Assembly (NCBI GenBank): GCA_020630975.1 | Contig: JAHDID010000025.1 | Location: 1-64,000 of the forward strand | Origin: Verrucomicrobiota bacterium | Lineage (GTDB): Bacteria > Verrucomicrobiota > Verrucomicrobiia > Verrucomicrobiales > DEV007 | DNA length: 64,000 bases | Direction: 5' to 3' | Shown here: positions 10,424-54,231 of the stretch, piece after piece | How the letters are laid out: each line of letters begins with the position of its first letter | Position numbering within the stretch: the first letter of the stretch is position 1 | Notes under the pieces: model-generated | What the model was told of the DNA's origin: nothing | What the model saw: the letters and a program-made list of their open reading frames with translations, nothing else | The model's database searches: none | Program-made: the position numbers and the translations under genes

Positions 10424-10513
10424 GGCGCTTGAAAAAATTAGCTACCGGTCTGAGCGACTTAAAAATTCAGCATAGATTCCTGCGAGGGTTATGTTGTATG
10501 ATAAGGGGTTATG

Positions 10514-10552: not shown

Positions 10553-10687
10553 TCCGAGAAGTTTCTGGCGCTGCACTAATAAATAAGTCGCAGCCAAAAG
10601 CAATCCTCGGTCGATCGGCAGAAAGCAAGCACTCCGGCTGTAGATGGCACGCTTCTGTCAACCCTGCTGGGTCTGGCTCTTTAAGTT

Positions 10688-10742
10688 CCGGTGGTTATCG
10701 CTGCGCTTCACCACCGGTATTATCTGTCGTGCCTACCGGCAC
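10688..10742. repeat. Two adjacent hairpins
   Basis: CCGGTGGT at 10688-10695 pairs with ACCACCGG at 10710-10717. A second hairpin, GTGCC/GGCAC, spans 10729-10742. They belong to the same GC-rich hairpin field as 10057-10252. Confidence 0.6.
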
Positions 10743-11082
10743 TGCGCGACCTACCTTGGTACTCTCACCCGCCTTCACCTCACTTGAACTCCACATTCAG
10801 GGCACTGCAGAATCACCTGCCTTGGGCTGTGCCACTCATTTCTTATTCAGAATCAACCTGAATGAAATACGCCCTCAAATGTCGAGAAGCCTCTTAGCCC
10901 CGAAAGCCGACAAAAACGCCACTAGGCCTAAAGAATCTATCAACTTGGTTGAGCTACAAGTTTGATCGTGTGCTATGCGCCAGCTGCTAGGGAACTGACC
11001 TTCCAACCAAAGCGGGCACACACGCGTCTTACAGCTCCCTCATGAGCTCGCCATCTTCGAGCTGCAGAGCAAAAGAAAACTA

Positions 11083-11415
11083 TCAGTCCTCTTCGGTAGC
11101 CCCACCGATGAATGAACCGAATCCTGGGCCATCATCAACTGGCGGTAATGGCGCACTCGTATCAACCGCATTCAACGCCTCTTGAGCCTGACGGATTTTC
11201 TGTAGATCAGTCCCCTCTCGCACTGAAAACATCACATTTCCACAGGCCACACACACATTAGCCACTACAGGAATCGATACCGCCTCAGTCAGGAACAAAG
11301 CGTGAGGACTCATGTGAGTCTCCAAAGCAAGGTCACTTTTATCCCCCTCGCCCACCTGATCCATCACACGAAGGTTCAGTACCACATCATCGGAACCACA
11401 TTGAGTGCACTTCAT
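11083..11415 (-). CDS. Small zinc-ribbon protein, function unknown
   Basis: The 110-residue protein has two CxxC pairs, CTQC at residues 3-6 and CVAC at about 55-58, which form a rubredoxin-like zinc ribbon. A short acidic Pro/Gly-rich tail follows. The middle is hydrophobic but not a clear membrane helix. It starts 41 bp after the stop of lptD on the same strand, so it may be expressed with it. I do not recognise a specific family. Confidence 0.7.
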   Translation of the reverse strand: MKCTQCGSDDVVLNLRVMDQVGEGDKSDLALETHMSPHALFLTEAVSIPVVANVCVACGNVMFSVREGTDLQKIRQAQEALNAVDTSAPLPPVDDGPGFGSFIGGATEED

Positions 11416-11456
11416 GAGAAAAGAGAACCTTGGGAAATTCGAAGTAAAATTACACC

Positions 11457-13724
11457 TTACAGACCAAGACCACCAGTAGGTTGATAGTCGATCGGTATAG
11501 AGACTTTTGGAAACGCCTTGAGCGTCAGACTAAGAAATAATCCATACTCAGGATCACCTACACCGTGATTACGAATAGAACCACCTACACGACCTACCCA
11601 ACTCCCAAGATCCTTGTGCAGAGCATACTGCTGATAGTTGAGTTGACTATTTTCAATATCATAACGATGCCCTGTACTTACCCCCCAGTCGGCACCAAGC
11701 CTAGTGTAAGTGTTAAAGGACAGCAGATTTGCATCCGGTATGGTCTCATGCCCACTGAGATAGAAGTGACCGATCGAGAAGCGAAAATCATCAACCGGCA
11801 TAAAATGAGCAAAGGAACTCAACTCTGTAAAACTATACTGGTTATCTTCAATAGGCAACTGCGCTGTCGTTCTAAATCCAAACCATGAAACAGGAGTCCA
11901 TGCGATATCAGTGTAGAAATTAGAAAACTGCCTATCAAACTCCGGATCTTCGAAGTAAGCCTCTAAATAATTATCAATTGAGAGCCATTTGTAATTCGCA
12001 CCATTTCTTCGGGTATACCAACGATTGGAAATACCACCCCGAAGAACATTCCAATCACTAATAGCATCAACTGCGGTGAAGGTGGGCAAATCAATAGAGC
12101 GCAGTCTTGTTGTTGGGATGTAACGATCTACAGCTGCAAACCTACCATTAATCTCCTTCGCCCCGGTCACTGAGTAATTGAGATAAGGCTGAGCCACATG
12201 CATCAAACCATCAATACCGAACAGTTCATTCTGAACACTAGCATCACGCTTAGACAACTTAAACGACAAATCAATACCAGCGTGGTAAGTGGCCGAATCA
12301 AAGGAATCCAATCCAGCAATATCGAAATTAGAATAGTTGCGATAACCAATACCCGCACGTGGCACGACATTTAACCAACCATCGACAGTCTGAGGAAAAA
12401 GCACCTCATGGTAGGTCGAAAAACGATTATAGCTATTAGGCGAGAACCGATTACCATTCGCATCAGTCCAATTACCTAAGTTGGTATCCTCACCAAGTTG
12501 CTCATCCAATCGACCGTAAGAAGTTAAACCACTGTAATAAGCCCCCGAATCACCAAGAGGAGTGCGGATGATATCCAAAGCCCCCTCCAATCGAGTATCT
12601 GTATGGTTGTAGCCATTGGGATCGAAGCGCCCCACCACAGAGGCTTCACCGCGATCAAACGTGCGGGTCACAGAAACAACATTGTCAGGTTTGGGGTCAA
12701 TGCGAAAGTCATTAGGGTAAAAGTCCTCATCCACATATCGATCACTACGAGCGTTAATATCTGCATCAACATAGAAGTCACCACCCCCTGTCGACGGCAC
12801 ATACACACGGTGTTGTAGATTGACGCGGTACCTTTCGTTGTCGGGTGTGGCATTCGCAGGACGCAGCTGGCCGTTAAATCGAGTCTGTGGCGACTTATCC
12901 TGAATGTAGTAGAGACTCAAACCACCGAACCGAGAACGGCGATCTTTGATATCCAAACCACCCGCAACACCACGCTCAGAACGATAATCTAACTTCGCCG
13001 TGGCAATGTGGTCATCATTAAGAGCGAAACCATACTGATTGAGGACATACCCACCCCACGCCGAACTCCAACCCGGTGTGAATTTATAACCGACATCGCC
13101 ATTCAATGGCTGAATGTAAAAAGGCAGCGCCATGACCGTCCGATCGCCAACTTTGAATTTAGCCCCACGGATGACCACACGACTCTCAGGATGGACAGTA
13201 ATTTTCTTGGCGGTGATCCGATAATCTGGATTAGGAGAATCATCAGTCGTGATGGTCGCATTCTCCATGGTGATCGGCCTCCCCTCGCCCTCTGGGACGA
13301 TCACTTTTTCGCCCTCATAGTAAAATGGCTCTAGCGCACTGCGGATGTGGCTCGCGTTCACCTCTTTGGTGTTAACGTTGTAAAAAATTTCCTCAGCATT
13401 GATCACTTGCTCTCCCTTGAACAGACGGACGTCTCCAGAGGCGCGAATCATCCCTGAAGCTTGGCTGAATTCGAATTCTTGAGACTCGATTGTCAAAGAG
13501 TCCAATTTAACAATCACATCTCCAGAAGCGCGGGCAACGCCAGTTGCGTGGTCGAAATCAGAGACATCGGCATGAATCTCAAGATTCGACGTATCGAGAC
13601 CAGCCTGATCTGAAAGCATGATCTGAGCATCGGCACCCACAACGCTGACGAGCACAAACAGTGCTGCTAGCAGGTTTTTAACCAAGCTGGAGTGCCCGGC
13701 AGTATGTTGTGTTTTAGTGGTCAA
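11457..13724 (-). CDS. lptD: LPS-assembly outer-membrane protein LptD
   Basis: The 755-residue protein has a signal peptide (about residues 1-33), an OstA/LptA-like N-terminal jellyroll domain (LEIHADVSDFDHATGVARASGDV and IRASGDVRLFKGEQVINAEEI, about 45-175), and a long C-terminal region of alternating aromatic/polar strands expected of the LptD barrel. It inserts lipopolysaccharide into the outer leaflet of the outer membrane with LptE, which is not seen here. lpxA lies upstream on the same strand, after a 143-bp gap. Base composition is slightly more AT-rich than the neighbouring genes, as in many barrel genes. Confidence 0.9.
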   Translation of the reverse strand: MTTKTQHTAGHSSLVKNLLAALFVLVSVVGADAQIMLSDQAGLDTSNLEIHADVSDFDHATGVARASGDVIVKLDSLTIESQEFEFSQASGMIRASGDVRLFKGEQVINAEEIFYNVNTKEVNASHIRSALEPFYYEGEKVIVPEGEGRPITMENATITTDDSPNPDYRITAKKITVHPESRVVIRGAKFKVGDRTVMALPFYIQPLNGDVGYKFTPGWSSAWGGYVLNQYGFALNDDHIATAKLDYRSERGVAGGLDIKDRRSRFGGLSLYYIQDKSPQTRFNGQLRPANATPDNERYRVNLQHRVYVPSTGGGDFYVDADINARSDRYVDEDFYPNDFRIDPKPDNVVSVTRTFDRGEASVVGRFDPNGYNHTDTRLEGALDIIRTPLGDSGAYYSGLTSYGRLDEQLGEDTNLGNWTDANGNRFSPNSYNRFSTYHEVLFPQTVDGWLNVVPRAGIGYRNYSNFDIAGLDSFDSATYHAGIDLSFKLSKRDASVQNELFGIDGLMHVAQPYLNYSVTGAKEINGRFAAVDRYIPTTRLRSIDLPTFTAVDAISDWNVLRGGISNRWYTRRNGANYKWLSIDNYLEAYFEDPEFDRQFSNFYTDIAWTPVSWFGFRTTAQLPIEDNQYSFTELSSFAHFMPVDDFRFSIGHFYLSGHETIPDANLLSFNTYTRLGADWGVSTGHRYDIENSQLNYQQYALHKDLGSWVGRVGGSIRNHGVGDPEYGLFLSLTLKAFPKVSIPIDYQPTGGLGL

Positions 13725-13867
13725 GAGCGGTCAGTTTTGGATAAACTAGCGTGATCCCGTCGAGGGCACAGAAATCAACACCTATGACTTAGCCAATATC
13801 GGGGGAAACACCAACTAAAATTTCAATTTTCATGCTAAAAAATTGCTCTTTGAGCCGCATTTTTTAG

Positions 13868-14653
13868 TTATTTGTGAAGTTTCAGGCAAAAGCCCTTCTT
13901 CGAATCCGATTTTAGAAAATTAACCATCAGCATCGCGACCTCGCCCCACTCCTGCTCTGACAGCTTCTCCAGCGCCTGTTTCAGGTTCAGATCACTTCGA
14001 TAGACTGTCCGATAGACTTCCTTAATCTGCTTGCGATCTTCCGACTCAAACCCTCCTCGCTTGAGCCCTACTGCGTTCAGCCCTGCTATCTCGTTGATTC
14101 CGGCCAATATGGTAAATGGAGGCACATCTGTGCTGACACCAGCCAAGCCCTGCGCCATCACATAATCGCCTACGCGGACGAACTGGTGATAAACCGACCC
14201 CCCACCCAGAAAACAACGGTTGCCCATCTCGACGTGGCCGCCGAGCAGCACATTATTGGCCAGTACATTGTGATCGCCCACGATGCAGTCGTGTCCGATG
14301 TGAGCTCCATTCATGAGATAGTTATGGTCTCCTAGGACTGTCTCGCCGTCAGGCTCGATACTGCGGTGGATAGTGACATACTCGCGGATCACATTGTGAT
14401 CGCCCACCGTCGCTCGGGAGTCGATCCCACGATCGAAACCCACAAAATGGGGATCTGCACCTACTAGAGCGCCAGAACCAATCTCGCACTCGACACCGAT
14501 CCTTGAGCCCTTTCTCACTTGAGCCTGGGCCATGATCTCGGTGCCAGCCCCGATGACGACATCGTCCTCTATTATCGCGTAGGGACCGATCTTCACTCCC
14601 TCGCCCAAGGTCGCGGAATCTGCCACGATGGCAGTTTGGTGGATGTTATCCAT
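13868..14653 (-). CDS. lpxA: Acyl-ACP:UDP-N-acetylglucosamine O-acyltransferase LpxA
   Basis: The 261-residue protein is full length for LpxA. It starts with the usual IHQTAIVADSATLGEGVKIGPY and continues as left-handed beta-helix hexapeptide repeats. The catalytic His is in GAHIGHDC (His121), followed by VLANNVLLGGHV. The C-terminal helical domain has GLNAVGLKRGGF. It transfers a hydroxyacyl chain to UDP-GlcNAc, the first step of lipid A synthesis. lpxC/fabZ are not next to it here. Confidence 0.95.
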   Translation of the reverse strand: MDNIHQTAIVADSATLGEGVKIGPYAIIEDDVVIGAGTEIMAQAQVRKGSRIGVECEIGSGALVGADPHFVGFDRGIDSRATVGDHNVIREYVTIHRSIEPDGETVLGDHNYLMNGAHIGHDCIVGDHNVLANNVLLGGHVEMGNRCFLGGGSVYHQFVRVGDYVMAQGLAGVSTDVPPFTILAGINEIAGLNAVGLKRGGFESEDRKQIKEVYRTVYRSDLNLKQALEKLSEQEWGEVAMLMVNFLKSDSKKGFCLKLHK

Positions 14654-36434: not shown

Positions 36435-38390
36435 ATGGAGCCTAATTTACTAGCCTGGTCGATTCTGCTGCTGCCGCTACTGGTCGCTACGGTCATTCTG
36501 TTCTTCCTGCGCAATGCAGGTGGCGTCGCTGGATTTTTAGCGACTGCATCAGCCCTCATCACTTTGGTCTTTGCCGTGATGCTAGCGCACCCGGAGCTGC
36601 GCTTTTCAACAGACGGAGCGGAGGCACCTCACCATGAAGAAGGGCATCATAAAGATGCCGCCTCTGAAAAGGGTGGTAAAAAAGACGACGGCCATGGCCA
36701 CGCAGAGATCGATCTGATCGGCGACTCAGAGGTAGCAAGCTACCCCTGGATCAATCTGGGCGAAGATGTGCTGAAAATCGATATCGGCCTAAAGATCGAC
36801 AAGCTCAGCGCCGGTATGATGCTGATCGTTACTTTCATCGGCTTCCTCGTGCATCTATTCTCGCTCGGCTACATGAAGGGCGATGAAGGCCTCGGACGCT
36901 ACTTTGGTGCGCTGGCTCTATTCATGTTTTCCATGACGGGCATCGTGCTCGCCGACAACTTCGTGATGATGTTCATCTTCTGGGAGCTAGTCGGTGTCAG
37001 CTCTTACCTGCTGATCAGCCACTGGTACACCAAGCCATCGGCCGCCGATGCTGCGAAGAAAGCCTTTCTCACCAACCGTATCGGCGACTTTGGCTTCATG
37101 CTCGGTATCCTGATCCTGTGGAAGCTGTGCGGGCACTTCTCATTCGATGGTATCCAGGCCAACTATGGCGAGATCAAAAACGATCTGATGCTTAATGTGG
37201 CGGTGCTACTGATCTTCTGCGGGGCTCTCGGTAAGTCAGCCCAAGCACCACTGCACGTCTGGCTGCCCGATGCGATGGAGGGCCCGACTCCTGTGTCGGC
37301 ACTGATCCACGCGGCTACCATGGTGGCCGCCGGTGTCTTCATGATGGCTCGCATCGGCTACCTCGTAGCTGTGGCAGAGATCGCCTCCTACGTGATCATC
37401 TGTGTCGGCGCCGCTACCGCACTGATCGCGGCGCTCATCGCCCTGCAGCAGAGCGATATCAAGAAGATCCTCGCCTACTCCACACTATCCCAGCTGGGCT
37501 ATATGATCATGGCTCAGGGCTGTGGCACCTACGGTAGCGAAGCCGGAATGTTTCACCTCTACACCCACGCTTTCTTCAAGGCGCTGCTCTTCCTAGGCTC
37601 TGGAGCGGTCATCTACGCCTGCCACCACGAGCAAAACATCTGGAAGATGGGCGGCCTGCTCCGTCGCATGCCGATCACCACGATTACCTTTGCCATCGGT
37701 ACCGCAGCTCTGATCGCTGTGCCTTTGACCAGTGGCTTCTGGAGTAAGGAGCACATCCTCCACCAGGCGCTTGAGACGGGTCACATCTATGGCCAGATCG
37801 CTCATTGGGTCGGCCTATTCGTCGCCCTACTCACACCTTTCTACATGACTCGCCTGTTCATCGTAGCGTTTCTCGGCAAGCCAAAGAGCCAGAATGCCAA
37901 CCATGCTCTGGAGGTCTCCCCAGTCATGTTTGTGCCACTGGTCCTCCTGACTGCCGTCTCGCTTTTCTCCGTATACCTCGGTGTGCCCGAGTGGCTGCTC
38001 GCTCAGCATAGCTCGGTCAATCCGATCGGCGACTTCGCCATCAACATCACTTCTATCTGCTCCATGGGAGCCTTGGTCATAGGTGTGCTAGCCGCCCTAG
38101 TGATCTACCGCGGCAAGGATAAGGACCCGATCACCATCGCTCCGCTACGTGACAAATTTTACATCGACGAGCTGTATCAAAAGATCGTGCTCATCTGTCA
38201 GGACCTAGTCGGCAAGCTGTTCGACATCCTCGATCGCTACCTCGTAGAAGGTATCGTGGCCAAACTGCCAGCTGGCTTGGCTCTGGGTGCCGGTATCGCA
38301 CTGCGCCGCCTACAGGCAGGCAATCTGCAATCCTACGCTTTCTTTTTCGCCTTCGCAGTGCTGCTGCTGATTTTCATTCTCATCTTTTAA
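36435..38390 (+). CDS. nuoL: NADH-quinone oxidoreductase subunit L with His-rich loop
   Basis: The 651-residue protein is the antiporter-like end subunit of complex I, with about 15 helices, FVMMFIFWELVGVSSYLLI, the conserved Lys in the AQAPLHVWLPDAMEGPTPVSALIHAATMVAAG segment, and the long lateral helix near the C-terminus. The loop after the second helix, residues about 63-92, is an unusual His/Lys/Asp-rich insertion (APHHEEGHHK, KKDDGHGHAE). It faces the periplasm if the usual topology holds. The gene lies 23 bp after nuoK. Confidence 0.96.
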   Translation: MEPNLLAWSILLLPLLVATVILFFLRNAGGVAGFLATASALITLVFAVMLAHPELRFSTDGAEAPHHEEGHHKDAASEKGGKKDDGHGHAEIDLIGDSEVASYPWINLGEDVLKIDIGLKIDKLSAGMMLIVTFIGFLVHLFSLGYMKGDEGLGRYFGALALFMFSMTGIVLADNFVMMFIFWELVGVSSYLLISHWYTKPSAADAAKKAFLTNRIGDFGFMLGILILWKLCGHFSFDGIQANYGEIKNDLMLNVAVLLIFCGALGKSAQAPLHVWLPDAMEGPTPVSALIHAATMVAAGVFMMARIGYLVAVAEIASYVIICVGAATALIAALIALQQSDIKKILAYSTLSQLGYMIMAQGCGTYGSEAGMFHLYTHAFFKALLFLGSGAVIYACHHEQNIWKMGGLLRRMPITTITFAIGTAALIAVPLTSGFWSKEHILHQALETGHIYGQIAHWVGLFVALLTPFYMTRLFIVAFLGKPKSQNANHALEVSPVMFVPLVLLTAVSLFSVYLGVPEWLLAQHSSVNPIGDFAINITSICSMGALVIGVLAALVIYRGKDKDPITIAPLRDKFYIDELYQKIVLICQDLVGKLFDILDRYLVEGIVAKLPAGLALGAGIALRRLQAGNLQSYAFFFAFAVLLLIFILIF

Positions 38391-38402
38391 TCCCAACGCG
38401 CC

Positions 38403-39947
38403 GTGACACCGACTATTCTAGAGATCATTGTCCTATTGCCGCTGGTCGCAGCACTGGCGATCGCTATCGGGGCACCCGCACGCATCACCTCGCTGATTGC
38501 ATCGTTTTTGGTATTGGGCGCCTCGCTAGGCACCGCGCTCAATTTCGATCGCAATGCAGAGGGCGTGGGCAACTTCGCTTTCCAATATTTCGCCGGCGAA
38601 CAGGGCGGCGGCCATGGACGCACCATCCTCGATATCGCTGGCTTCCCCGATATCTCTCTGGCCTTCGGCCTCGATGGCATCAGCGTGGTGTTGATGCTAC
38701 TCACCGCCATCGTGCTGCTCGCTGCGATCTGGATGTCGCCTCGCGAGGACAAAATCGAAGGCAGTAGCAAGCTCTACTACATCTGCTCCCTGCTCATCGG
38801 CGGTGGTGCAATGGGAGCTTTCCTTTCAACCGATCTTTTCTTCCTCTATGCCTTCCACGAGCTGGCACTGATCCCAACATTCCTGATGATCGGCCTATTC
38901 GGCAATGGAGCCGACCGTGTCCGCACCGCTTGGAAGACTACTATCTACCTCGGTGTCGGCAGTATCATCCTACTCGTCGGACTCATCGCTGCGGTGGTGA
39001 ATATCGGTGCTGAGTCATTCGATATCCCCAGCCTGATCGCTGCTGCCAAAGATGCCAATCTATCTGGCACAGTGCAGATGTGGATCTACCTACCTCTGCT
39101 CATCGGCTTCGGTATCCTGGTGTCACTATTTCCTTTCCACAGCTGGGCACCCGATGCCTACGCCGATGCCCCTACCCCAGTGGCCATGCTGCACGCGGGT
39201 GTTTTGAAAAAGTTCGGTCTCTACGGTCTGATCCGTATCGGTGCACCGCTCTTCCCAGAGGGAGCCGAGAGCCTATCGCACATCCTACTGCTGCTACTGG
39301 CGTGCAATATCATCGTCCTCGGTCTGGTCACGATCGCCCAGAAGCGTCTCGACAAGATGCTCGGTTACTCATCGGTCATGCACATGGGCTATGTCTTTCT
39401 CGGTATCGCCAGCGGCACACACATCGGCCTAGTGGGCGCTGTGGTGCTGATGTTTGCTCACGGTCTATCAGTAGCGCTGCTCTTCGGGCTGTGCGGTTCA
39501 CTGCGCGAGCGCTACGGCAGCCTAGAGTTTGATAAGCTCGGTGGCGTCGCCAAAGTCATTCCTGAGGCGGGACTGCTGTTTGGCTTTGCCGCATTTGCCT
39601 CGATTGGATTGCCTGGCTTCACCAACTTCGCTGCAGAAGTGATGGTCTTCTTCTCGGGCTTTCAGGCCTATTCCGCTGAGACAGGGTTCACACCACTGCA
39701 GTGGACTACAGTTTTCGCCCTCTGGGGTGTGGTGATCTCTGCAGTCTACATGCTGCGCGCCTACCGAAATGTATTTAAAGGAGACCTCGCAGAGGGCTTG
39801 CCCGCTGTCAGCGACCTCCGATGGAATGAGAAGCTGCCGATCTTTCTACTACTCGGCACCCTACTGGTGACGGGCTTCATTCCAGAGATTCTCATCAAGT
39901 ATGTTCGCCCAGCCTTGGAAGGGCTGATGATAGCGTCTGGTCAATAA
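38403..39947 (+). CDS. nuoM: NADH-quinone oxidoreductase subunit M
   Basis: The 514-residue protein starts at a GTG 12 bp after nuoL. It has the NuoM antiporter fold with LFFLYAFHELALIPTFLMI (conserved Glu), FPFHSWAPDAYADAPTPVAMLHAGVLKKFGLYG (conserved Lys) and GYSSVMHMGYVFLG. It contributes one proton-pumping channel of the membrane arm. Confidence 0.96.
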   Translation: MTPTILEIIVLLPLVAALAIAIGAPARITSLIASFLVLGASLGTALNFDRNAEGVGNFAFQYFAGEQGGGHGRTILDIAGFPDISLAFGLDGISVVLMLLTAIVLLAAIWMSPREDKIEGSSKLYYICSLLIGGGAMGAFLSTDLFFLYAFHELALIPTFLMIGLFGNGADRVRTAWKTTIYLGVGSIILLVGLIAAVVNIGAESFDIPSLIAAAKDANLSGTVQMWIYLPLLIGFGILVSLFPFHSWAPDAYADAPTPVAMLHAGVLKKFGLYGLIRIGAPLFPEGAESLSHILLLLLACNIIVLGLVTIAQKRLDKMLGYSSVMHMGYVFLGIASGTHIGLVGAVVLMFAHGLSVALLFGLCGSLRERYGSLEFDKLGGVAKVIPEAGLLFGFAAFASIGLPGFTNFAAEVMVFFSGFQAYSAETGFTPLQWTTVFALWGVVISAVYMLRAYRNVFKGDLAEGLPAVSDLRWNEKLPIFLLLGTLLVTGFIPEILIKYVRPALEGLMIASGQ

Positions 39948-39972
39948 TATCGAACCCACACTTTCACTCACT

Positions 39973-41457
39973 ATGCCTGTTTACGCTCTGGAGATAATTG
40001 TGGTTGGCATCGGCCTACTGATGCTGATGCTGGATGCCTTCGCCGATCTGAAGGATAAACGCGCCATCGGCTACTTGGGAGTCATCGGACTCATCGCTGT
40101 ATTTGGTCTACTTTTCGTGGTCGATCGCACTAGTAGCGACTCACCGTTTTGGCAGTTTTACAGTGCCGACGGCAAGTCGATGTTCTACAAAGGCATCGCC
40201 GTTCTGACAACCCTGATCGTCCTACTCATGGCGATCGATTACTCTCCCGTCACCATCGCTCAGACAGCCGAGCCTGAAGAGGGCGCTCACCCGCAGGCCG
40301 GATTGGGCGAGTTTTTCTCACTACCACTTTTCACCTGTGCCGGTCTGATGTGGATGGCATCTGCGACCCATCTGGTCAGCATCTTTGTCGCTCTGGAGAC
40401 CGTCACCATCTCTTTCTACGTGCTCGTCGCTTACAACCGCAGAAACGTCGGTTCACTTGAGGCTGGCGTGAAATACCTGATCCTCGGCGCGCTATCCACA
40501 GGCTTCCTCGTCTATGGTATGGCTTGGCTCTACGGTATGACGGGTAGCATGCAGCTGTCCGAGATCGCTACCAAGCTACAGGCTGACGGCATCAACGAGA
40601 CCGGTGCTCTGTTCGCTTTCGCTCTGCTACTGACCGCTATGGCCTTCAAGGTAGGAGCCGTGCCTTTTCACCAGTGGATACCCGATGTTTACCAAGGTGC
40701 CCCGACTCCTATCACAGCCTTTCTTTCTGTCGGTTCCAAAGCAGCAGGCTTCATTATCTTTATGCGCATCACGGCGCTCTATCTAGGCAATGGGTATCTG
40801 GTAGGCAAGATCACCCTAGTCCTGACCATCCTAGCGATTCTGACACTGATAGTGGGTAATCTAGCCGCCCTACCTCAGAGTAACTTCAAACGCCTACTCG
40901 CCTACTCTAGTGTCGCTCACGCGGGCTTCCTTTTAATGGCTATGGCGTCAACGCCCACAGAGACTGTGGCAAAGAGCGGCGAGTCCATGTCTGTCGGCAG
41001 CGTGGTCTCCTTCTACCTTGGCGCTTACCTGCTGATGACCTTGCTCGCCTTCCTGGTGATGACGGTGATCCGCGCCTCTACCAGCGGCGAGAGCATCAGC
41101 TCCTACGCTGGCATCGCTCGCACCAATCCTTTCCTAGCGACAGCTCTGCTATTCTCCATGGCCTCTCTGGCTGGTATCCCACTTACCGTTGGTTTCTTCG
41201 GCAAGTTATTCGTGTTCAAGCTCGCCTTCGAGCAAGAGCAGTGGATCCTACTGGCCTGTGGTATCATCGGTGCGTGTGCTGGCTTCTACTACTACTTGAA
41301 GATCGCCGCCTCGATGTTTCTCAGCTCTCCCAACGAGGGCGAGACTGTGCCTGCGATCCGTGTCAGCCCTGCTGCAGCTATCTGCATGGTGCTACTGATG
41401 GCAGCCATCATCTACGGCGGGATCAACCCTAGCCTACTACTAAAACTCGTCGGCTAG
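39973..41457 (+). CDS. nuoN: NADH-quinone oxidoreductase subunit N
   Basis: The 494-residue protein has the NuoN antiporter fold: LVSIFVALETVTISFYVLVAYNRRNVGSLEAGVKYLILGALSTGFLVYG, FKVGAVPFHQWIPDVYQGAPTPITAFLSVGSKAAGF and LLAYSSVAHAGFLLMA. It is the last gene of the J-K-L-M-N block. The hydrophilic-arm genes and nuoH, nuoI and nuoA are not in the window, so complex I is encoded in at least two places. Confidence 0.96.
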   Translation: MPVYALEIIVVGIGLLMLMLDAFADLKDKRAIGYLGVIGLIAVFGLLFVVDRTSSDSPFWQFYSADGKSMFYKGIAVLTTLIVLLMAIDYSPVTIAQTAEPEEGAHPQAGLGEFFSLPLFTCAGLMWMASATHLVSIFVALETVTISFYVLVAYNRRNVGSLEAGVKYLILGALSTGFLVYGMAWLYGMTGSMQLSEIATKLQADGINETGALFAFALLLTAMAFKVGAVPFHQWIPDVYQGAPTPITAFLSVGSKAAGFIIFMRITALYLGNGYLVGKITLVLTILAILTLIVGNLAALPQSNFKRLLAYSSVAHAGFLLMAMASTPTETVAKSGESMSVGSVVSFYLGAYLLMTLLAFLVMTVIRASTSGESISSYAGIARTNPFLATALLFSMASLAGIPLTVGFFGKLFVFKLAFEQEQWILLACGIIGACAGFYYYLKIAASMFLSSPNEGETVPAIRVSPAAAICMVLLMAAIIYGGINPSLLLKLVG

Positions 41458-45543: not shown

Positions 45544-45945
45544 ATGAAGACGATGGTCGCCAAACAATCTAGCAGGCCTACGAGAGCCCCCCTGCCACGG
45601 AAAGCCTTACTACTTGTCGAGGGCGATAGCAATGTCAGAGACAGCCTAGACAGCCTGCTCAGCACCTGTGGCTTTGCCACCGAGACCTGCAGCAGCCTCG
45701 AAGCGGCGATCTCAAAGGCTGCAGCCAACCGATTCGATGCGATCCTCCTCGATGGTCAATTGCCCGAGCTATCGACAGACTATGGCGCCGACCCGATTTC
45801 TCCTACAGGCTTCGGCACCCCCTTCATCATCATCGGCGGCGATCAGAACGCGATTCAAGAGGCATTTACCACAGAAGCTGCAGGGTATATTCCCAAGCCT
45901 TTCAATCCTACTGATCTACTGACGGCTCTAGTAAACACACTATAA
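45544..45945 (+). CDS. Stand-alone receiver-like protein, altered
   Basis: The 133-residue protein has a response-regulator receiver fold. ALLLVEGDSNVRDSL replaces the usual pair of Asp by Glu-Gly-Asp, Asp70 in ILLDGQLPE is the phosphoacceptor, FIIIGGD has Gly where the switch Ser/Thr is expected, and YIPKPF keeps the Lys (118). It has no output domain. It may therefore be a phosphate relay or a protein-protein switch. It follows the histidine kinase by 168 bp. Confidence 0.8.
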   Translation: MKTMVAKQSSRPTRAPLPRKALLLVEGDSNVRDSLDSLLSTCGFATETCSSLEAAISKAAANRFDAILLDGQLPELSTDYGADPISPTGFGTPFIIIGGDQNAIQEAFTTEAAGYIPKPFNPTDLLTALVNTL

Positions 45946-46163: not shown

Positions 46164-46565
46164 ATGATCGCTAAGACTATGAAACCTACCAACTATGGTA
46201 CGCCTACTAGCCCTCAGCACATCACACTGGTCGATACCCATTTTCGACTAGGTAGATTTTTCCAAAGATACTTACCTGCAGGAGGCGAGCTCCACTACCT
46301 GCGAGACATCGAACAGCTTACCCCGCTCGACCTAGGTCTTTCTGACCTCATGGTTGTCGATCTGGAGGACATCGTCACCGAGATACCCTTCGGCGACCTC
46401 GCGTGTACGATACGCGCAGCCGATCGCTGCCGCAGTAGCATCGCTATCTGCGGCACTGCGGATGAGGAGCGCCTGCTCGATCGCATGGGCTTCGGGCTAG
46501 TCATCCGCACCCCGTTTAGCGAGGATGCACTGCGAGGATATATCGATGCCTATTTAGGCAAATGA
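46164..46565 (+). CDS. Degenerate receiver-like protein
   Basis: The 133-residue protein keeps the alternating strand-helix order of a receiver (ITLVDTHFRLGRFFQRYL, DLMVVDLEDIV, SSIAICGTADE, GLVIRTPFSEDALRGYI). Asp66 sits at the phosphoacceptor site, but only one acidic residue remains in the metal pocket and the conserved Lys is Arg115. This points to a receiver that no longer takes phosphate in the usual way. It ends 4 bp before the stop of the convergent marR-like gene. Confidence 0.65.
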   Translation: MIAKTMKPTNYGTPTSPQHITLVDTHFRLGRFFQRYLPAGGELHYLRDIEQLTPLDLGLSDLMVVDLEDIVTEIPFGDLACTIRAADRCRSSIAICGTADEERLLDRMGFGLVIRTPFSEDALRGYIDAYLGK

Positions 46566-46569: not shown

Positions 46570-47061
46570 CTAAATCGGCATCCCCTTGATCAAATCTCGT
46601 AATAATTGATCCAAGTGCGCCAACTGAGCCGCATCGAGTCCCCCCAGAGACCTGTCCGCGCAGGCAAATCTGGCTTCACTAGCTTGATTTGCCAGATCTA
46701 TACCAGCCTGAGTCAGCCCAATGATGACTCGCCGCCGATCCTCCGCATCCTCCACTCGGCTGACCAACCCCCGCTTCTTGAGTCGATCGATACGATTGGT
46801 AACAGCCCCTGGTGAGATCATAGCCGCCTCCGTGATATCGCTCGCCGACAGCTGAAAAGGCGGGCCCTGGCGTCGCAGAGCAGACAGAACATCGTACTCA
46901 AACCACTCCAAATCTAGCTCTGATAACGCCGAGGTGACCTCGGCAGCCATACGTCTAGCAACTAGCTGGAACCGCAATTCCAAAGCTAGACAGTCACTGT
47001 CTAGCTCTGGTCTCTCTGATTCCCAATCGGATAAAACACTGTCAACTCGGTCGTCGGCCAT
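46570..47061 (-). CDS. MarR-family transcriptional regulator
   Basis: From ATG 47061 the product (163 residues) has the MarR winged helix: LEWFEYDVLSALRRQGPPFQLSASDITEAAMISPGAVTNRIDRLKKRGLVSR (helix-turn-helix) followed by the DAEDRRRVIIGLT wing. The wing motif DxRxxxxxLT is diagnostic. The longer frame to 47106 adds a hydrophobic, Phe-rich leader that is unlikely. A perfect 16-bp palindrome plus a degenerate copy lie about 50 bp upstream and are the probable operator, shared with the divergent acidic-protein gene. Confidence 0.9.
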   Translation of the reverse strand: MADDRVDSVLSDWESERPELDSDCLALELRFQLVARRMAAEVTSALSELDLEWFEYDVLSALRRQGPPFQLSASDITEAAMISPGAVTNRIDRLKKRGLVSRVEDAEDRRRVIIGLTQAGIDLANQASEARFACADRSLGGLDAAQLAHLDQLLRDLIKGMPI

Positions 47062-47108
47062 CTGTGGAACTTTGAAACACATAAACCAAAATCCGAAAAA
47101 AGGCATTC

Positions 47109-47139
47109 ATTTTAACGTTAAAATATTTGACGTTAAAAT
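47109..47139. promoter_or_regulatory. MarR operator candidate (tandem palindromes)
   Basis: ATTTTAACGTTAAAAT at 47109-47124 is a perfect 16-bp palindrome. A degenerate copy, ATTTGACGTTAAAAT, lies at 47125-47139, with centres 15 bp apart. They are in the divergent region between the marR-like gene and the acidic-protein gene. Confidence 0.7.
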
Positions 47140-47221
47140 AAAAAGACCGAATATAACTCTGTCGGAGATCTTCCATGAAAGACTCCTCAATCGGGAACAA
47201 CAGAACAACTCAATTCCAAAC

Positions 47222-47518
47222 ATGAAAGTATTGCACGCATTCAAAGACTTGGACTACTGCGCTGATGGTCTATCTGAGTCTCCTCAAGTTTCAAAGGTAG
47301 AGCAGCCTATCTACAATAGGGGCTCTTCAGAGCCAAAGAACCTAGGCGATCTTTCCGAAGCCCCCGATATATGGCTAGAAACCGAATATCGCGACTATCA
47401 AGATGACTTCGACTATCTCGCTCCTGAAGAATCTGACTACGACGATTTCGAAGACGATGACTACTATCGTCATCGTGACTGGCGGCCCAGCTCGCAATCT
47501 AGCGGCAAGCGGTGGTAA
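47222..47518 (+). CDS. Small very acidic Tyr/Asp-rich protein
   Basis: From ATG 47222 the product has 98 residues. The first 60 are moderately polar (KVLHAFKDLDYCADG, EAPDIWLETEYRDY). Then comes a strongly acidic aromatic run (DDFDYLAPEESDYDDFED, DDDYYRHRDW), and the tail RPSSQSSGKRW is basic. The frame is open from 46934, but that part is antisense to marR. The gene faces the operator and has its own terminator, which supports a real, regulated transcript. No family is recognised. A role as substrate or precursor for the next gene is possible. Confidence 0.65.
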   Translation: MKVLHAFKDLDYCADGLSESPQVSKVEQPIYNRGSSEPKNLGDLSEAPDIWLETEYRDYQDDFDYLAPEESDYDDFEDDDYYRHRDWRPSSQSSGKRW

Positions 47519-47598: not shown

Positions 47599-47655
47599 AC
47601 CCCGCTCTGGAATAGCAGGTAACAACCAGAGCGGGGTCAGTCTTTCTTTTTTTGA
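47599..47655 (+). terminator. Terminator of the acidic-protein gene
   Basis: ACCCCGCTCTGG (47599-47610) and CCAGAGCGGGGT (47626-47637) form a perfect 12-bp stem with a 15-nt loop. It is followed by CTTTCTTTTTTT. It separates the acidic-protein gene from the methyltransferase-ATP-grasp gene. Confidence 0.9.
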
Positions 47656-47713: not shown

Positions 47714-49657
47714 ATGCATACCACAGCATCTCGTACTGAAAAGCAACGCAAACAGACATCACCTCACAACAAGAAGAAAAAGACCAAACCTGCCGTCTCC
47801 ATACTAGGACCAGTCGAGGATCTTGAGAGCTATGTTAAAGCCGAGTGGTGGAAAGATGTCTTCAATTCCAACTATTTAAAAACCGATGGGGATGTCGTGA
47901 ACGACAGTCATATCACTGATCTCGAGATCAATCGATTCATTAGAATCTTGAAGCCCAATTCAGACAGCCACATCCTAGACCTCTGCTGCGGACATGGCCG
48001 ACATACTATTGCACTAGCCAAACGAGGCTACAAAAACGTTACAGGTTTAGACAGATCCCACTACCTAATAAAAAAGGCTAGAAAGCAAGCTAGTGAGGAA
48101 AATTTAACGCTCCGGTTTCGCGAAGGAGACGCTCGAAAACTACCATTCAAACCCAGAACGTTCGATTTTGTCGTGATTCCAGGAAATAGTTTTGGTTACT
48201 TCGAGTCAGCTCAGGAGGATCATAGCGTCCTATCCGAGATCGCGCGGGTGCTGAAACCCGGCGGCCAGGTCCTCTTAGATCTCACAGATGGTGACTATCA
48301 GCGGGAAAACTACCAACCTCGGAGCTGGGAGTGGATCGATAAAAACTACTTTGTCTGCCGAGAGAGATGCCTCTCTGACGATAAATCACGATTGATCTCC
48401 CGAGAAGTCATCACCCATACCACAAAGGGGGTGGTATCTGATCAATTCTATGCCGAGAGACTATACTCTCAGAAACAAATAGAAACGCTACTCTCAGACT
48501 TAGGATATAGGGCGATTAAGATCGAAGAGCCATTTTCCACCAATAGTGTACGCAATCAAGATCTAGGAATGATGCAGCAGCGCTATTTATGCAGCGCCCG
48601 AGCGCCCGATTTAGCGCCATCAACCGTGAAGACGAAAGCTTTCAAAAACATAGCCGTCATCATGGGAGACCCCTCTAAACGAGACACCGTCAAGCCCGGT
48701 GGGGAATTCGACGACGATGACTTTGTCGTGATCGACCGGCTCCGGAGTTCACTCTCCCATTTGAATGATTTTCAGTTTACCTATTTTACGAATCACGATC
48801 AACTCTTATCAGACTCAGCAAAGATCAAAAACGAGTTCGACCTAGTGTTCAACCTATGTGACGAAGGATTCCAAAATCAAGCTCGCCAAGAGTTGCACAT
48901 ACCAGCTCTACTCGAGATGCTGGACATACCATACACAGGCGGCACACCTCAGTGCCTTGGATTTTGCTATGACAAATCCCTGGTGCGAGGTGTCGCCAAC
49001 GAAATGGATATCCCCACACCCCAAGGCTTTCTAATCCAGCCGGATGATAGCACATTCCATGATATGGTGATAGACTTCCCAGTCCTGATCAAACCTAACC
49101 TCGGAGATTCAAGTATCGGAATCACACAGCGTAGCGTGTGTAGAAATCTGCGCGAACTTACAGCTGCAATCCACGAGGTGAGGAGCCGGTTCGATTTTCA
49201 GATCCCTATTTTGGTGGAGCAATTCCTAGAGGGAGCGGACCTGACCGTTGGATTCATAGGTAATCTATCCACAGACTTTCGTATATTCCCCGTTGTGGAA
49301 GAGGACTACAGTGCGTTACCGGACGACTTGCCTGCGATTTGTGGCTACGAAGCAAAATGGGATCCCGATTCTCCCTATTGGCAGCTATCATCTAGACCAG
49401 CCAACCTACCAGAGCAAACCGAAGCATTTTTGATCAACTCGTGTCAGCGCCTATTTGAGCGATTAGAATGTCGAGATTACGCAAGATTCGACTGGCGGGT
49501 AGACTCCAATGGCACACCCCGACTTTTGGAGGTAAACCCCAACCCTGGATGGTGCTGGGATGGCCATCTAGCCAAGATGGCAAAGCTAGACAACATCGAC
49601 TATGGCGATATGCTGGGACTGATCATCAAGGCTGCGATACAGCGACACTCAACCTGA
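47714..49657 (+). CDS. Fusion of SAM-dependent methyltransferase and D-Ala-D-Ala-ligase-like ATP-grasp
   Basis: The 647-residue protein has a basic leader (about 1-28) and a class I methyltransferase at about 60-295, with motif I ILDLCCGHGR (87-96), GLDRS, and DFVVIPGNSFGYF. From about 310 to 640 there is an ATP-grasp module of the Ddl type: YTGGTPQC (407-414), PVLIKPNLGDSSIGI (456-470) and RLLEVNPNPG (603-612). Ddl-type enzymes join a carboxylate to an amine using ATP. Fusion with a methyltransferase points to a tailoring enzyme for a peptide or amino acid derivative and not to cell-wall Ddl. It is followed by hairpins and not by a gene on the same strand. Confidence 0.85.
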   Translation: MHTTASRTEKQRKQTSPHNKKKKTKPAVSILGPVEDLESYVKAEWWKDVFNSNYLKTDGDVVNDSHITDLEINRFIRILKPNSDSHILDLCCGHGRHTIALAKRGYKNVTGLDRSHYLIKKARKQASEENLTLRFREGDARKLPFKPRTFDFVVIPGNSFGYFESAQEDHSVLSEIARVLKPGGQVLLDLTDGDYQRENYQPRSWEWIDKNYFVCRERCLSDDKSRLISREVITHTTKGVVSDQFYAERLYSQKQIETLLSDLGYRAIKIEEPFSTNSVRNQDLGMMQQRYLCSARAPDLAPSTVKTKAFKNIAVIMGDPSKRDTVKPGGEFDDDDFVVIDRLRSSLSHLNDFQFTYFTNHDQLLSDSAKIKNEFDLVFNLCDEGFQNQARQELHIPALLEMLDIPYTGGTPQCLGFCYDKSLVRGVANEMDIPTPQGFLIQPDDSTFHDMVIDFPVLIKPNLGDSSIGITQRSVCRNLRELTAAIHEVRSRFDFQIPILVEQFLEGADLTVGFIGNLSTDFRIFPVVEEDYSALPDDLPAICGYEAKWDPDSPYWQLSSRPANLPEQTEAFLINSCQRLFERLECRDYARFDWRVDSNGTPRLLEVNPNPGWCWDGHLAKMAKLDNIDYGDMLGLIIKAAIQRHST

Positions 49658-49800: not shown

Positions 49801-50217
49801 CTAGTAGTTAGAAAGGGGCTTCAGTTTCTTCAGTTCTGAGAATAGAGCCAAACTAGCAAAGGCCAGCTTTTCCAGTGCCTTGATATGGTCCACATCCCCT
49901 TGTCTATTCTTTAAATGTTCTTTCACTCGACTAATATCTTCAAGATGGCTCTCGAGCTTGTGGCAAATTTGCCGGGCGCAACTAGGGCTGATACGGCCGA
50001 TTTCTCGGTACAGCTCCATGCGGTTGGCGATCTCGGTACCCTCGATCATCATATCCAGTATCCAGTCAAAATGGCGGTGCCATTGTGCCGCTGAGACGCC
50101 TCGCAAAGCCGGGCGAAAAATCTCGCGTATAGTTGATTCACGGCTTTGGAAATCTTGCGATGCCTTCGCTGCCGACTCTGGTACGGGCACGGGCCCGAGC
50201 TTTAGGTGAATGGCCAT
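49801..50217 (-). CDS. Paralogue A of an unknown small helical family
   Basis: The 138-residue protein is predicted to be all helical and cytosolic. It shares a clear pattern with the protein at 51023-51424: F(Q/E)S-x-E-x-x-I, then W, then (I/V)(E/D)G(T/S)EI-x-x-R, LY-x-EIG-x-I-(S/T)P, and ARQ-x-CH-x-(L/I)E. The conserved Glu, Arg and His residues could make a binding site. No known family is recognised. Confidence 0.65.
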   Translation of the reverse strand: MAIHLKLGPVPVPESAAKASQDFQSRESTIREIFRPALRGVSAAQWHRHFDWILDMMIEGTEIANRMELYREIGRISPSCARQICHKLESHLEDISRVKEHLKNRQGDVDHIKALEKLAFASLALFSELKKLKPLSNY

Positions 50218-51022: not shown

Positions 51023-51424
51023 ATGATAGCTAAGAAAGTTCTCACCATTCCTGCAGAGGTTACTCAAGCTGCGCAAATTTTTGAGTCTGCCGAGCAGTCG
51101 ATCAAAAATGAGATATTCCCCATCCTAAAGGAACAGGGACAACCAGCCTGGCAATGTGAAAACTCCGGCCTGCTGAATCTGGTGGTAGATGGGAGCGAGA
51201 TTTCCCACCGCCTCAGCCTTTATGCGGAAATCGGCCACATCACTCCACCGATGGCTCGCCAGACCTGTCACCGGATAGAGCTTTATCTAGAATCTTTACT
51301 CAATGTCATGGATCGCATCGAAGACGATGCTGAGCAGCAAAACCTACTAAAACAACTGTCGACTAGTGCAATAGGGCTCCTCCATTGTATGAGGCGCTTG
51401 AGGCCTTGCCACTGTTCCCATTAG
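51023..51424 (+). CDS. Paralogue B of an unknown small helical family
   Basis: The 133-residue protein aligns with the product of 49801-50217 over most of its length. Shared elements are FESAEQSI, DGSEISHRLSLYAEIGHITPP and ARQTCHRIELYLE. It ends in a Cys/His-rich tail (CMRRLRPCHCSH). It lies 18 bp before the RimB-like gene and is the probable first gene of the B/RimB/AstE-like/RimK operon. Confidence 0.65.
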   Translation: MIAKKVLTIPAEVTQAAQIFESAEQSIKNEIFPILKEQGQPAWQCENSGLLNLVVDGSEISHRLSLYAEIGHITPPMARQTCHRIELYLESLLNVMDRIEDDAEQQNLLKQLSTSAIGLLHCMRRLRPCHCSH

Positions 51425-51442: not shown

Positions 51443-51877
51443 ATGAGTAAACCTATCATAATTGGTTGGCGAGAGATGGTAACTCTCCCAGAGTGGGGGC
51501 TTGAGTTGCGTGCTAAAGTAGATACCGGAGCCAAGAGCAGCTCTATCGATTGCTCTGATATAGTGGAACTGCCAGACAACCGTGTTCGGTTCACTATACG
51601 AGTTTCGCGCTCTCGAGGGAAGACCATCACCTTAGAAGCCCCAATAGCAATCAGAAAGCGAGTGCGCAGCTCCACAGGTGAAGGGCGCAGCCGACTATTC
51701 GTAGAGACGACCTTACACCTAGCTGGAATCGAGAAAAAAATCCTAGTCAATCTAGCCTGTCGCAAAAAGATGTTACACCGTATGCTACTGGGGCGCGAGG
51801 CTCTAGGGGGCCGAGAGTTTTTGATCGATTGTGGAGTCGATCACTGGGCGACAGCCCCTCCCAACGAAAAGAAATAA
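51443..51877 (+). CDS. RimB-like retropepsin-fold protease (DUF785)
   Basis: The 144-residue protein matches the family annotated as ATP-dependent zinc protease or RimB. WREMVTLPEWG is the typical start, then KVDTGAKSSSID with the aspartic-protease DTG at 27-29, a strand-rich middle with many Arg, and HRMLLGREALGGREFLIDCG. In Pseudomonas, RimB removes Glu residues added by RimK to ribosomal protein S6. Here a RimK-like gene is two genes downstream, so the pairing of addition and removal is likely. Confidence 0.85.
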   Translation: MSKPIIIGWREMVTLPEWGLELRAKVDTGAKSSSIDCSDIVELPDNRVRFTIRVSRSRGKTITLEAPIAIRKRVRSSTGEGRSRLFVETTLHLAGIEKKILVNLACRKKMLHRMLLGREALGGREFLIDCGVDHWATAPPNEKK

Positions 51878-51878
51878 G

Positions 51879-52997
51879 ATGACCACCCAAACACGTGAGA
51901 AGCGGCCGATCGATCGATGGGGATCTATAAAGATTGAGCTAGGAGAGAAGAAACAAGTCCGTCTAGAGGCGGGCGAAAGCTTTACCGGCGTGGCGATGCG
52001 ACTCCCCATCATGGTATGGCGAGGCAAAACAGATGGCCCAGTGGTAGGAATCACCGCAGCCGTCCACGGGGATGAGATCAATGGCACTGGTGCAATCCGC
52101 AGGCTGATCCAAGAGCCTCCCTTCGAGCTAGATTACGGAGCCCTGATATTGGTGCCAGTGGTAAATATAATGGGATTTGAGCGACATAGCCGCTACACAC
52201 CAGATCGCAGGGATCTAAATCGTATGTTTCCCGGCAGTCCCAAAGGTAGTATGACGGCGAGGCTCGCCCACTTGATATTTGAGGAAGTTATCAGCCGCTG
52301 TGACTATGTGATAGATCTACACACGGCTGCCGTCAGACGCACCAACTTCCCTAACGTACGAGCGGATCTAGAAATACCCGAGTGCGAGCGTCTCGCTCAT
52401 GCTTTCGGCGCTGAGGTGCTCGTAGATAGCGAGGGGCCGGAAGGATCGCTACGACGAGAAGCCTGTAAGACAGGATGCCCGACCATCATCCTCGAGGCAG
52501 GCGAAGTCAGCAAGGTCGAGCCGACCGTGCTAGATCTGACCATTCGCGGCATCACTCACGTGCTAGAGGAGCTAGGGATGATCGAGATCAGCGCAAAAGA
52601 GCGCCCCGATACGGCGCCTCATCAGATGATTGTCCATCGCTCGACCTGGCTCCGAGGCGAAAATGGTGGTTTCCTAAAGTTTCACGTATCGGCTGGCGAT
52701 ACGGTGGAAAAAGAACAGCCGGTAGCCACCAATACGGGCTTGCTAGGTGAAGAGATCGAAGTGCTGACCAGCCCATACAATGGCATCGTGCTAGGGATGA
52801 CGACTATGCCCGCAGTATCGCCAGGAGACCCGATCGTCCATATCGCTAGACCTGAGACACGAAAGCAATTTCGAAAACTGGAGGAAAGCGTTGATCAAAT
52901 AGAAGACGACGCTCTAGAGAGCCAATTAAGAGACCATCTGGCCACCAGTATCACCGTAGAGGAGCCGTCCGAGATCATCGATGAGGAGGAGTTCTAA
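51879..52997 (+). CDS. Succinylglutamate desuccinylase/aspartoacylase-family zinc enzyme
   Basis: From ATG 51879, one base after the RimB stop codon, the product (372 residues) has zinc-binding AAVHGDEINGTG (His63, Glu66) and DLHTA (His148), the Arg/Asn segment RRDLNRMFPG, and the general-base Glu in IILEAGE. A biotinyl-lipoyl-like C-terminal domain follows (FLKFHVSAGDTVEKEQPVA). Family members hydrolyse N-acyl amino acids or amides. The acidic tail (PSEIIDEEEF) is unusual. It lies between the RimB-like and RimK-like genes, as seen in other bacteria. Confidence 0.88.
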   Translation: MTTQTREKRPIDRWGSIKIELGEKKQVRLEAGESFTGVAMRLPIMVWRGKTDGPVVGITAAVHGDEINGTGAIRRLIQEPPFELDYGALILVPVVNIMGFERHSRYTPDRRDLNRMFPGSPKGSMTARLAHLIFEEVISRCDYVIDLHTAAVRRTNFPNVRADLEIPECERLAHAFGAEVLVDSEGPEGSLRREACKTGCPTIILEAGEVSKVEPTVLDLTIRGITHVLEELGMIEISAKERPDTAPHQMIVHRSTWLRGENGGFLKFHVSAGDTVEKEQPVATNTGLLGEEIEVLTSPYNGIVLGMTTMPAVSPGDPIVHIARPETRKQFRKLEESVDQIEDDALESQLRDHLATSITVEEPSEIIDEEEF

Positions 52998-53031
52998 ACC
53001 ACGCTAACTAACCTTTACAAAAGATACAGCT

Positions 53032-54231
53032 ATGAGACTAAATATCCTATCTCGGTCCCCGGAATGCTACTCCACCATGCGCCTAGTAGAGGCCGCCAAG
53101 GACAGAGGCCATAAAGTACTAGTACGAGATGTACTGAACTATGCCATCGATATCGACCAAGGAGAACCGGATCTATACTACCAGGGAAAAGAAATAAATA
53201 TACCAAACGCAGTCATACCTCGCATCGGCACATCCGTGACTCGCTACGGCACTACAGTACTCAGGCAGTTTGAACAAATGGATGTCTACACACCCAACAC
53301 ATCCTCGGGCGTCACTAACTCGCGTGACAAGCTGCGTAGCTTACAGATTCTATCAAAGCATAACATCGGTATCCCTCGCACAGCTTATGTCAGCCGCAAA
53401 GAGGATGTGAATGATGCACTAGAAAGAGTGGGCGGGACTCCTGTTATCATCAAACTCATCGAGGGCACACAGGGAGTGGGCGTAATCCTCGCCGACAAGC
53501 CGGAGATAGCCAAAGCTATCATTGAGACTCTCCACTCGGCTCATCAAAATGTCTTAATCCAAAAATTTGTGGCAGAAAGCAAAGGCAAAGATGTCCGAGC
53601 TTTTGTTATAAATGACCGTGTCGTCGGTGCGATACGCCGCACTGCACAGGGGCAAGAGTTTCGCAGCAACGTCCATCGCGGAGGCGTCGCTACCCCGATA
53701 GACCTCGATCCAACCTATGAAAATGCTGCTGTCCGAGCAGCCCAGATTATGGGCTTAAAGGTCTGCGGCGTAGATATGCTAGAGGGCGCAGATGGCCCGC
53801 AGATCATGGAAGTCAATTCCTCCCCCGGACTAGAGGGTATCGAAGGATCCACAGGGCTTGATATCGCCGGCGAGATCATTGATTTTGTAGCTGATCAGGC
53901 CAATATGCCAGATATAGACTTGCGCCAGAGATTAACGGTCAGCCGAGGCTACGGAGTGGCCGACATAACTATACCAGATGGAAGCCCCTACATTGGTAAG
54001 ACCATTAAGGAAACAGGCCTGCGAGAAGACGATGTGGCGGTACTAACACTCAAGCGTGGCGACTCCGTGATTTCCAATCCCAAATCATCACGAGTACTGG
54101 AATCGGACGATACCCTGCTATGCTACGGTAAAGTCGAAATCATGAAGAAAATGATACAAGATCGCCCCAGAAGACGGCGAGAACTGCAACCACTACCCGA
54201 GACACCAGTGACCGAAGGGACTACCCTGTAA
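53032..54231 (+). CDS. rimK: RimK-type alpha-L-glutamate ligase fused to a TrkA-C domain
   Basis: The 399-residue protein has a RimK N-domain (ILSRSPECYSTMRLVEAAKDRGHKV and RIGTSVTRYGTTVLRQFE) and an ATP-grasp domain with PVIIKLIEGTQGVGVIL (137-153) and EVNSSPGLEGIE (260-271). After about residue 300 comes a TrkA-C (RCK_C) domain (VADITIPDGSPYIGKTIKE, VLTLKRGD, LESDDTLLCYGK). RimK adds Glu to the C-terminus of S6 and related targets. The RCK_C domain could bind a regulatory ligand. Confidence 0.9.
   Translation: MRLNILSRSPECYSTMRLVEAAKDRGHKVLVRDVLNYAIDIDQGEPDLYYQGKEINIPNAVIPRIGTSVTRYGTTVLRQFEQMDVYTPNTSSGVTNSRDKLRSLQILSKHNIGIPRTAYVSRKEDVNDALERVGGTPVIIKLIEGTQGVGVILADKPEIAKAIIETLHSAHQNVLIQKFVAESKGKDVRAFVINDRVVGAIRRTAQGQEFRSNVHRGGVATPIDLDPTYENAAVRAAQIMGLKVCGVDMLEGADGPQIMEVNSSPGLEGIEGSTGLDIAGEIIDFVADQANMPDIDLRQRLTVSRGYGVADITIPDGSPYIGKTIKETGLREDDVAVLTLKRGDSVISNPKSSRVLESDDTLLCYGKVEIMKKMIQDRPRRRRELQPLPETPVTEGTTL

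Follow-up and report, generated by a model that had tools for sequence, protein, structure and literature searches.

A small acidic protein gene divergent from marR in a Verrucomicrobiota bacterium, possibly part of a MarR regulon of very few genes

What does a MarR-family repressor control when the gene divergent from it encodes a small acidic protein of no recognized family? In the window, the whole stretch of 64,000 nucleotides analyzed here, an acidic, Tyr-rich protein of 98 residues with a short basic C-terminus is encoded at 47222..47518 (+), and counterparts of the ORF were located in genomes G024 and G009. It lies between a MarR-family repressor gene (46570..47106, −) and a gene for a fusion of a methyltransferase and a D-Ala-D-Ala-ligase-like ATP-grasp enzyme (47714..49657, +). 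A sequence-only reading had proposed that the product serves the ATP-grasp enzymes as a substrate or carrier. We tentatively consider the ORF to be real and probably coding, restricted to this lineage, and part of what appears to be a MarR regulon of very few genes, a view to which we give somewhat less than an even chance.

The acidic reading frame and its counterparts

The ATG at 47222 is, as read from the sequence, the first in-frame start past the operator. The product has a D+E fraction of 0.26, K+R of 0.11, Y of 0.08, and a net charge of −14; it carries DDFDYLAPEESDYDDFED, DDDYYRHRDW, and the tail RPSSQSSGKRW, and its charge per 15-residue window reaches a minimum of −9 and a final value of +2. 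The acidic Tyr/Asp-rich ORF of 98 residues reported earlier is real and both motifs quoted for it are present in the product. The description "extremely acidic" holds as to acidic, and "extremely" is somewhat strong, with 26% D+E and net −14 compared to 43% and net −26 in the G009 counterpart. The protein matched no family in Pfam, NCBIfam, or PHROGs, as the earlier reading had stated. The AlphaFold2 model (mean pLDDT 58.6, pTM 0.11) contained neither helix nor strand, and the protein is apparently a chain without a stable fold, the three-row alignment behind the model being too thin for proof.

The window protein gave only a self-match in its own genome and no usable relative among genome_contigs, phages, plasmids, and viral contigs. 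Weak matches at E ≤ 1 were obtained in 8 of 55 other related genomes, and the best of them, in G011 (E 2.7e-4, 40% over residues 32-83), located inside a 312-aa ORF of a different kind, was rejected as compositional. As direct homologue searches gave nothing convincing, both neighboring genes were used as queries. MarR orthologues at E ≤ 1e-30 were present in 4 of the 386 genomes of the order sample, namely, the window's own genome (G000), G009, G024 with two copies, and G034.

On contig C24 of G024 (L013), the fusion (1456-3429), marR (3438-3944), and an acidic ORF (4066-4410) follow each other on one strand, and on contig C156 of G009 (L015), marR (1471-1977, minus) is divergent from an acidic ORF (2129-2377, plus). 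Both genomes belong to the window's genus, and both counterparts are acidic with a basic C-terminus and adjoin the orthologous marR. The three acidic ORFs begin with ATGAAA 79 (G000), 67 (G024), and 61 bp (G009) past a 33-bp site. Over 15 residues, the basic tail of the G024 and G009 proteins attains a charge of up to +8, compared to +2 in the window protein, and the charge asymmetry, with an acidic N side and a basic C side, was reached by 33 (G000), 0 (G024), and 0 (G009) of 2000 shuffles. Smith-Waterman scores as high were obtained from full shuffles in 17 (G000-G024), 9 (G024-G009), and 440 (G000-G009) of 1000 cases, and against shuffles that preserved local composition no pair stood out (240, 329, and 876 of 1000, respectively). 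By these comparisons, position, composition, and charge layout are common to the three proteins, which have no demonstrable sequence homology; neither a core motif nor a C-terminal sequence is conserved among them.

No such acidic ORF was seen beside marR of G034 or beside the second marR copy of G024 (L016/L031), which has neither an operator match nor an acidic-basic ORF alongside. Relatives of MarR in the class sample (3 of 384) comprised the window's own and the more distant L089 and L090, for which the ORF lists consulted contained no Asp/Tyr-rich basic-tailed ORF. A profile of the three counterparts retrieved at E ≤ 0.05 from 33 genomes of the genus only those three, a result circular for them that adds no further copy, and a composition filter set after the three proteins were known gave 5 matches in 806 kb, 3 of them these proteins, and is descriptive only. 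A looser acidic filter (D+E ≥ 0.25, net −10 or lower) returned ORFs in 11 loci without a phmmer match to the window protein at E ≤ 1; all of them (L030, L035, L036, L041, L056, L059, L066, L070, L072, L076, and L078) were rejected by eye for their different layout. In the article listings and the openings of abstracts, no paper was recognizable as dealing with such a pairing of MarR and an acidic protein, or with the solved chains closest to this MarR.

Two 133-aa ORFs are located beside marR in the window, one with a receiver domain (45544-45945, 49 bits) and one without a Pfam match (46164-46565). In G009, too, a receiver-like ORF of 133 aa (Response_reg, 26.9 bits, below the cut-off of 30.2) directly follows the acidic gene.

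The coding claim for the 47222 ORF rests mainly on synteny, because its synonymous codon choice was no better than the null: 2874 of 5000 sequences of a base-composition null scored at least as high, and with a second training set 1980 of 3000 did so. Codon usage gave no coding support to the G009 ORF (2299 of 3000 null sequences as high) and moderate support to that of G024 (107 of 3000). It is highly improbable that the ORF is untranslated, the MarR-controlled transcript being a small RNA or the frame spurious. The missing codon bias in G000 and G009 and the counterparts' lack of demonstrable homology to each other would agree with that, but three ORFs of the same unusual composition and charge layout occupy the same place past the operator, and their lengths were matched in merely 20 (G000, ATG ORFs of at least 98 aa in the shuffled 458-bp stretch past the operator), 6 (G024), and 26 (G009) of 2000 shuffles. 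The marR gene of G000 is likewise weakly codon-biased (314 of 3000 null sequences as high). The 47222 ORF is probably a coding gene with its sequence under weak constraint.

The presumed operator and its distribution

The marR product matched MarR_2 (PF12802) with 53 bits (cut-off 27) and MarR (PF01047) with 45.2 bits (cut-off 24.6), which places its winged-helix MarR domain above the curated cut-offs; its closest solved chains are 8ylh and 8ylf. The true start of marR is likely at 47061, where the orthologues begin. Between marR and the acidic gene, a presumed MarR operator of two adjacent palindromic copies, TTTTAACGTTAAAATATTTGACGTTAAAATAAA, is located at 47110..47142 and is conserved beside marR in relatives. 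It belongs to a palindromic element with 17-nt arms, 88% complementary (47106-47142), to which a MarR-family protein is predicted to bind, and the 33-bp double palindrome was matched in 0 of 100 shuffles of the window. The operator region that the sequence-only reading had assigned jointly to marR and the acidic gene corresponds to this double palindrome between the divergent genes.

Within the second palindrome copy, TTGACG (47127-47132) could serve the acidic gene as its −35 element, with TATAAC 19 bp away as the −10 candidate. At the operator of the G024 acidic gene, TTGACG-18 bp-TATAAT was read from the sequence, and in the three genomes the second half-site contains TTGAC(G/A), a good −35. 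The automatic scan reported 3 promoters, no clear excess over the number in shuffles (mean 1.8, sd 1.3). The "own terminator" noted previously for the acidic gene was recovered as an intrinsic-terminator-like hairpin between the acidic and fusion genes (47600..47653, +), with an 11-bp stem (47600-47610/47626-47636), a 15-nt loop, and a T-rich run after the stem. The segment 47590-47660 folds at −33.2 kcal/mol (z −5.3), and 0 of 200 shuffles were as good; the automatic terminator scan, which takes loops of 3-8 bases, reported none here.

With up to 3 mismatches, the 33-bp operator pattern was found in 3 of 56 genomes (G000, G009, and G024), which are three of the four with an orthologous MarR; in the fourth, G034, the element upstream of marR has diverged. 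A near-identical pattern in the phylum sample occurred in 1 of 387 genomes, the window's own, and reversed-pattern controls gave 0 among the matches listed in both the 56-genome and the 387-genome search. A looser 32-bp pattern (≤2 mismatches) located one place each in G000, G009 (on both strands), and G034 and three in G024, and with an 18-bp half pattern (≤1 mismatch) the numbers of sites in G000, G009, G024, and G034 were 1, 1, 3, and 0. The operator copies are TTTTAATATAAAAATATTTGACGTAAAAATAAA at the acidic gene and TTTTAACATCAAATAATTTGACGTCAAAATAAA at the fusion in G024, and TTTTAACATTAAAAGATTTGACATTAAAATAAA in G009. As read from these sequences, the gene pair, the presumed operator, and a single operator place in the genome are found in G000 (about 96% complete), and the arrangement with its charge layout in three genomes. 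Because the operator was found once in G000, between marR and the acidic gene, the latter looks like the sole output of MarR besides marR itself.

In G024 the third operator site precedes a giant ORF (L028 7802-19000) of 3733 codons or more. Its product matches LEPR-XLL marginally (16.2 bits, cut-off 17) and is probably a surface protein in the same apparent MarR regulon.

The adjoining methyltransferase-ATP-grasp fusion

Both neighbors named in the sequence-only reading, marR (MarR_2, 53 bits) and the fusion of a methyltransferase with a D-Ala-D-Ala-ligase-like enzyme, were recovered by profile matches. The fusion was detected at E ≤ 1e-40 in 2 of 56 relatives, G000 and G024 (64% identity). 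A scan of genome_contigs located it at 51 loci from many phyla, archaea included, with 49-63% identity, a scatter that suggests lateral spread. MarR matches (E ≤ 1e-3) accompanied it at 4 of the 51 loci, L074, L061 (38.6% identity), and, weakly, L045 and L060. In G024 the fusion is preceded by a copy of the operator. In the window it is not: there the fusion comes after the hairpin, and it lacks a separate operator match. As the fusion-marR pair and the acidic gene of G024 each have an operator copy, it is plausible that in this genome the fusion is linked to the acidic gene by regulation.

As a substrate, precursor, or carrier of ATP-grasp enzymes, either the fusion or RimK, the acidic protein would be modified at its acidic side chains or C-terminus. 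Its gene adjoins the fusion in G000 and shares a 21-kb contig with it in G024, both with an operator, and the methyltransferase half scored 62.6 bits against a RiPP (daptide) methyltransferase model, one of many methyltransferase models matched and far under its cut-off of 175. A role of this kind is nevertheless very unlikely indeed, since in G009 the marR-acidic pair is present without a fusion match at E ≤ 1e-40 (genome only 69% complete), a finding that the sequence-only reading had itself listed as speaking against the proposal, and since the search it had suggested, for the acidic gene beside fusions elsewhere, yielded an acidic-basic ORF in 1 of 51 loci, namely L074, the contig of G024 itself (the flanks are short at several loci, and a few cases could have been missed). 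The conserved core or C-terminus which it had expected of a precursor is absent from the three acidic proteins, and among NCBIfam models the ligase half matched D-Ala-D-Ala ligases best, under the cut-offs of these models, and not peptide maturases. Graspetide precursors (PMC8939145) are similar in being acidic peptides near an ATP-grasp gene. The window protein differs from them: no conserved core next to a cognate ligase was found, the neighboring enzyme is of the D-Ala-D-Ala ligase type, and the acidic gene is absent from 50 of 51 fusion loci.

Of the 51 fusion loci, 10 have an AstE/AspA-like gene and 5 a RimK-like ATP-grasp gene within the flanks retrieved. Acidic ORFs of 131-132 aa, alike in all three gammaproteobacterial MAG contigs L072 (6995-7393), L076 (1419-1814), and L078 (7357-7755), lie directly or closely upstream of the fusion and have no phmmer match to the window protein; they would be better candidate partners of the fusion than the latter. 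Two related small proteins without a family match (49801-50217 and 51023-51424, 29.6% identity) are encoded in the window near Zn_protease, AstE-like, and RimK genes (51443-54231), and three consecutive Proton_antipo_M proteins of the Mrp antiporter or complex I type (36435-41457) are encoded upstream of the region.

Possible ligand and action of the acidic protein

The targets of local MarR regulons are usually enzymes or transporters. The locus resembles such regulons in PF12802 and PF01047 matches above the gathering score, a divergent target, and a shared inverted repeat by marR, and differs in that the sole site found in G000 is shared by marR and the gene for an acidic protein that is apparently disordered. 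With a confidence a little short of even, we propose that the neighboring MarR represses the acidic gene as its dedicated target and that the product of the gene is a disordered polyanion acting by charge. MarR dimers on the double palindrome, the second half of which overlaps the presumed −35 of the acidic gene, would hold down both genes; a small ligand would free the repressor from the operator, and transcription of the acidic gene alone would then proceed as far as the terminator behind it. The product would lack a stable fold and consist of a long polyanionic Asp/Tyr stretch with a short basic tail after it. Most likely its charge would be what matters: once induced, the protein would sequester or screen polycations (polyamines, divalent metals) or basic macromolecules. 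The sequence-only reading had also suggested a metal or cation buffer, and none of the results speaks against this. The predicted regulation by MarR is well supported by the sequence comparisons, and we infer the binding of MarR to the operator, its release by a ligand, and all biochemical action of the acidic protein.

Polyamine-type neighbors, noticed after the fact, occur at 4 of 6 MarR loci (of the window, G009, G024 C24, G024 C322, G034, and L061) and hint at the MarR ligand, serving as a clue and no more. The G009 neighbors, encoded on the opposite strand, are agmatinase, nspC, and carboxynorspermidine synthase, the agmatinase and carboxynorspermidine synthase matches being below their cut-offs. 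G034 and the second MarR copy of G024 have nearby PAD_porph genes with weak agmatine-deiminase similarity; in the latter (C322), an aldehyde dehydrogenase gene lies between the PAD_porph gene and marR. The contig L061, from a Rhodospirillaceae MAG (alphaproteobacterial), has a related marR, and a diverged operator-like sequence separates it from a divergent operon (6104-14088) of citrate synthase, the fusion, an AstE-like protein, glutathionylspermidine amidase/synthase (898 bits), and an MFS transporter. No polyamine-type gene was found among the annotated genes at marR in the window and on G024 C24. The self-matches of the five polyamine-type queries carry no weight, because the queries came from the MarR loci, and only the match in L031 is additional. 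It is conceivable, if improbable, that MarR senses polyamines or cations and has a single target in the genome, an inducible polyanion without structure that binds polycations when they are in excess. Only the charge pattern would be kept by selection, and the protein would therefore be invisible to sequence search and recognizable by its operator alone.

Instead of a cation sink, the acidic protein might be a disordered binder of nucleic acid, ribosomes, or basic proteins, a chaperone-like polyampholyte induced by a stress that MarR senses, which we regard as unlikely, though worth keeping in mind. The charge-segregated design, with tails of +8 per 15-residue window in G024 and G009, would suit such a binder, but the window tail is weakly basic (+2 in its last 15-residue window) and no family was matched. 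The related marR of L061, with its diverged operator, is adjoined by a small protein of the PA3496 family (NF046101, "putative envelope integrity"; 37.8 bits, cut-off 22), a family that likewise has small proteins with an acidic and then a basic stretch. Yet this L061 protein has neither significant similarity to the three acidic proteins nor a charge asymmetry of its own, and the three do not match the family: the window protein had 0 families at E ≤ 0.01 and the G024 and G009 counterparts no PA3496 match at E ≤ 1. A rather improbable role is that of an antirepressor which binds MarR or mimics DNA in a feedback loop on the operator. A precedent is ArmR, which binds MexR and acts as antirepressor of this MarR-family repressor. 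The likeness lies in a small protein linked to a MarR-family repressor. Here, a strongly acidic small protein of the apparent MarR regulon adjoins marR in all three genomes, and G024 offers two further operator places; against this, the C-terminus is basic and not conserved in sequence, no helix is predicted, and the only operator found in G000 is the one between marR and the acidic gene, so that an antirepressor would have nothing else to switch there.

Under the reading of a MarR-repressed, disordered polyanion, the repressor-operator pair would be preserved while the controlled protein keeps only its charge and layout. Operators may thus offer a way to find fast-evolving disordered members of regulons, and concrete predictions on the induced protein follow. 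If the polyamine lead is true, the repressor would control a protein sink, where the target is usually an enzyme or a transporter.
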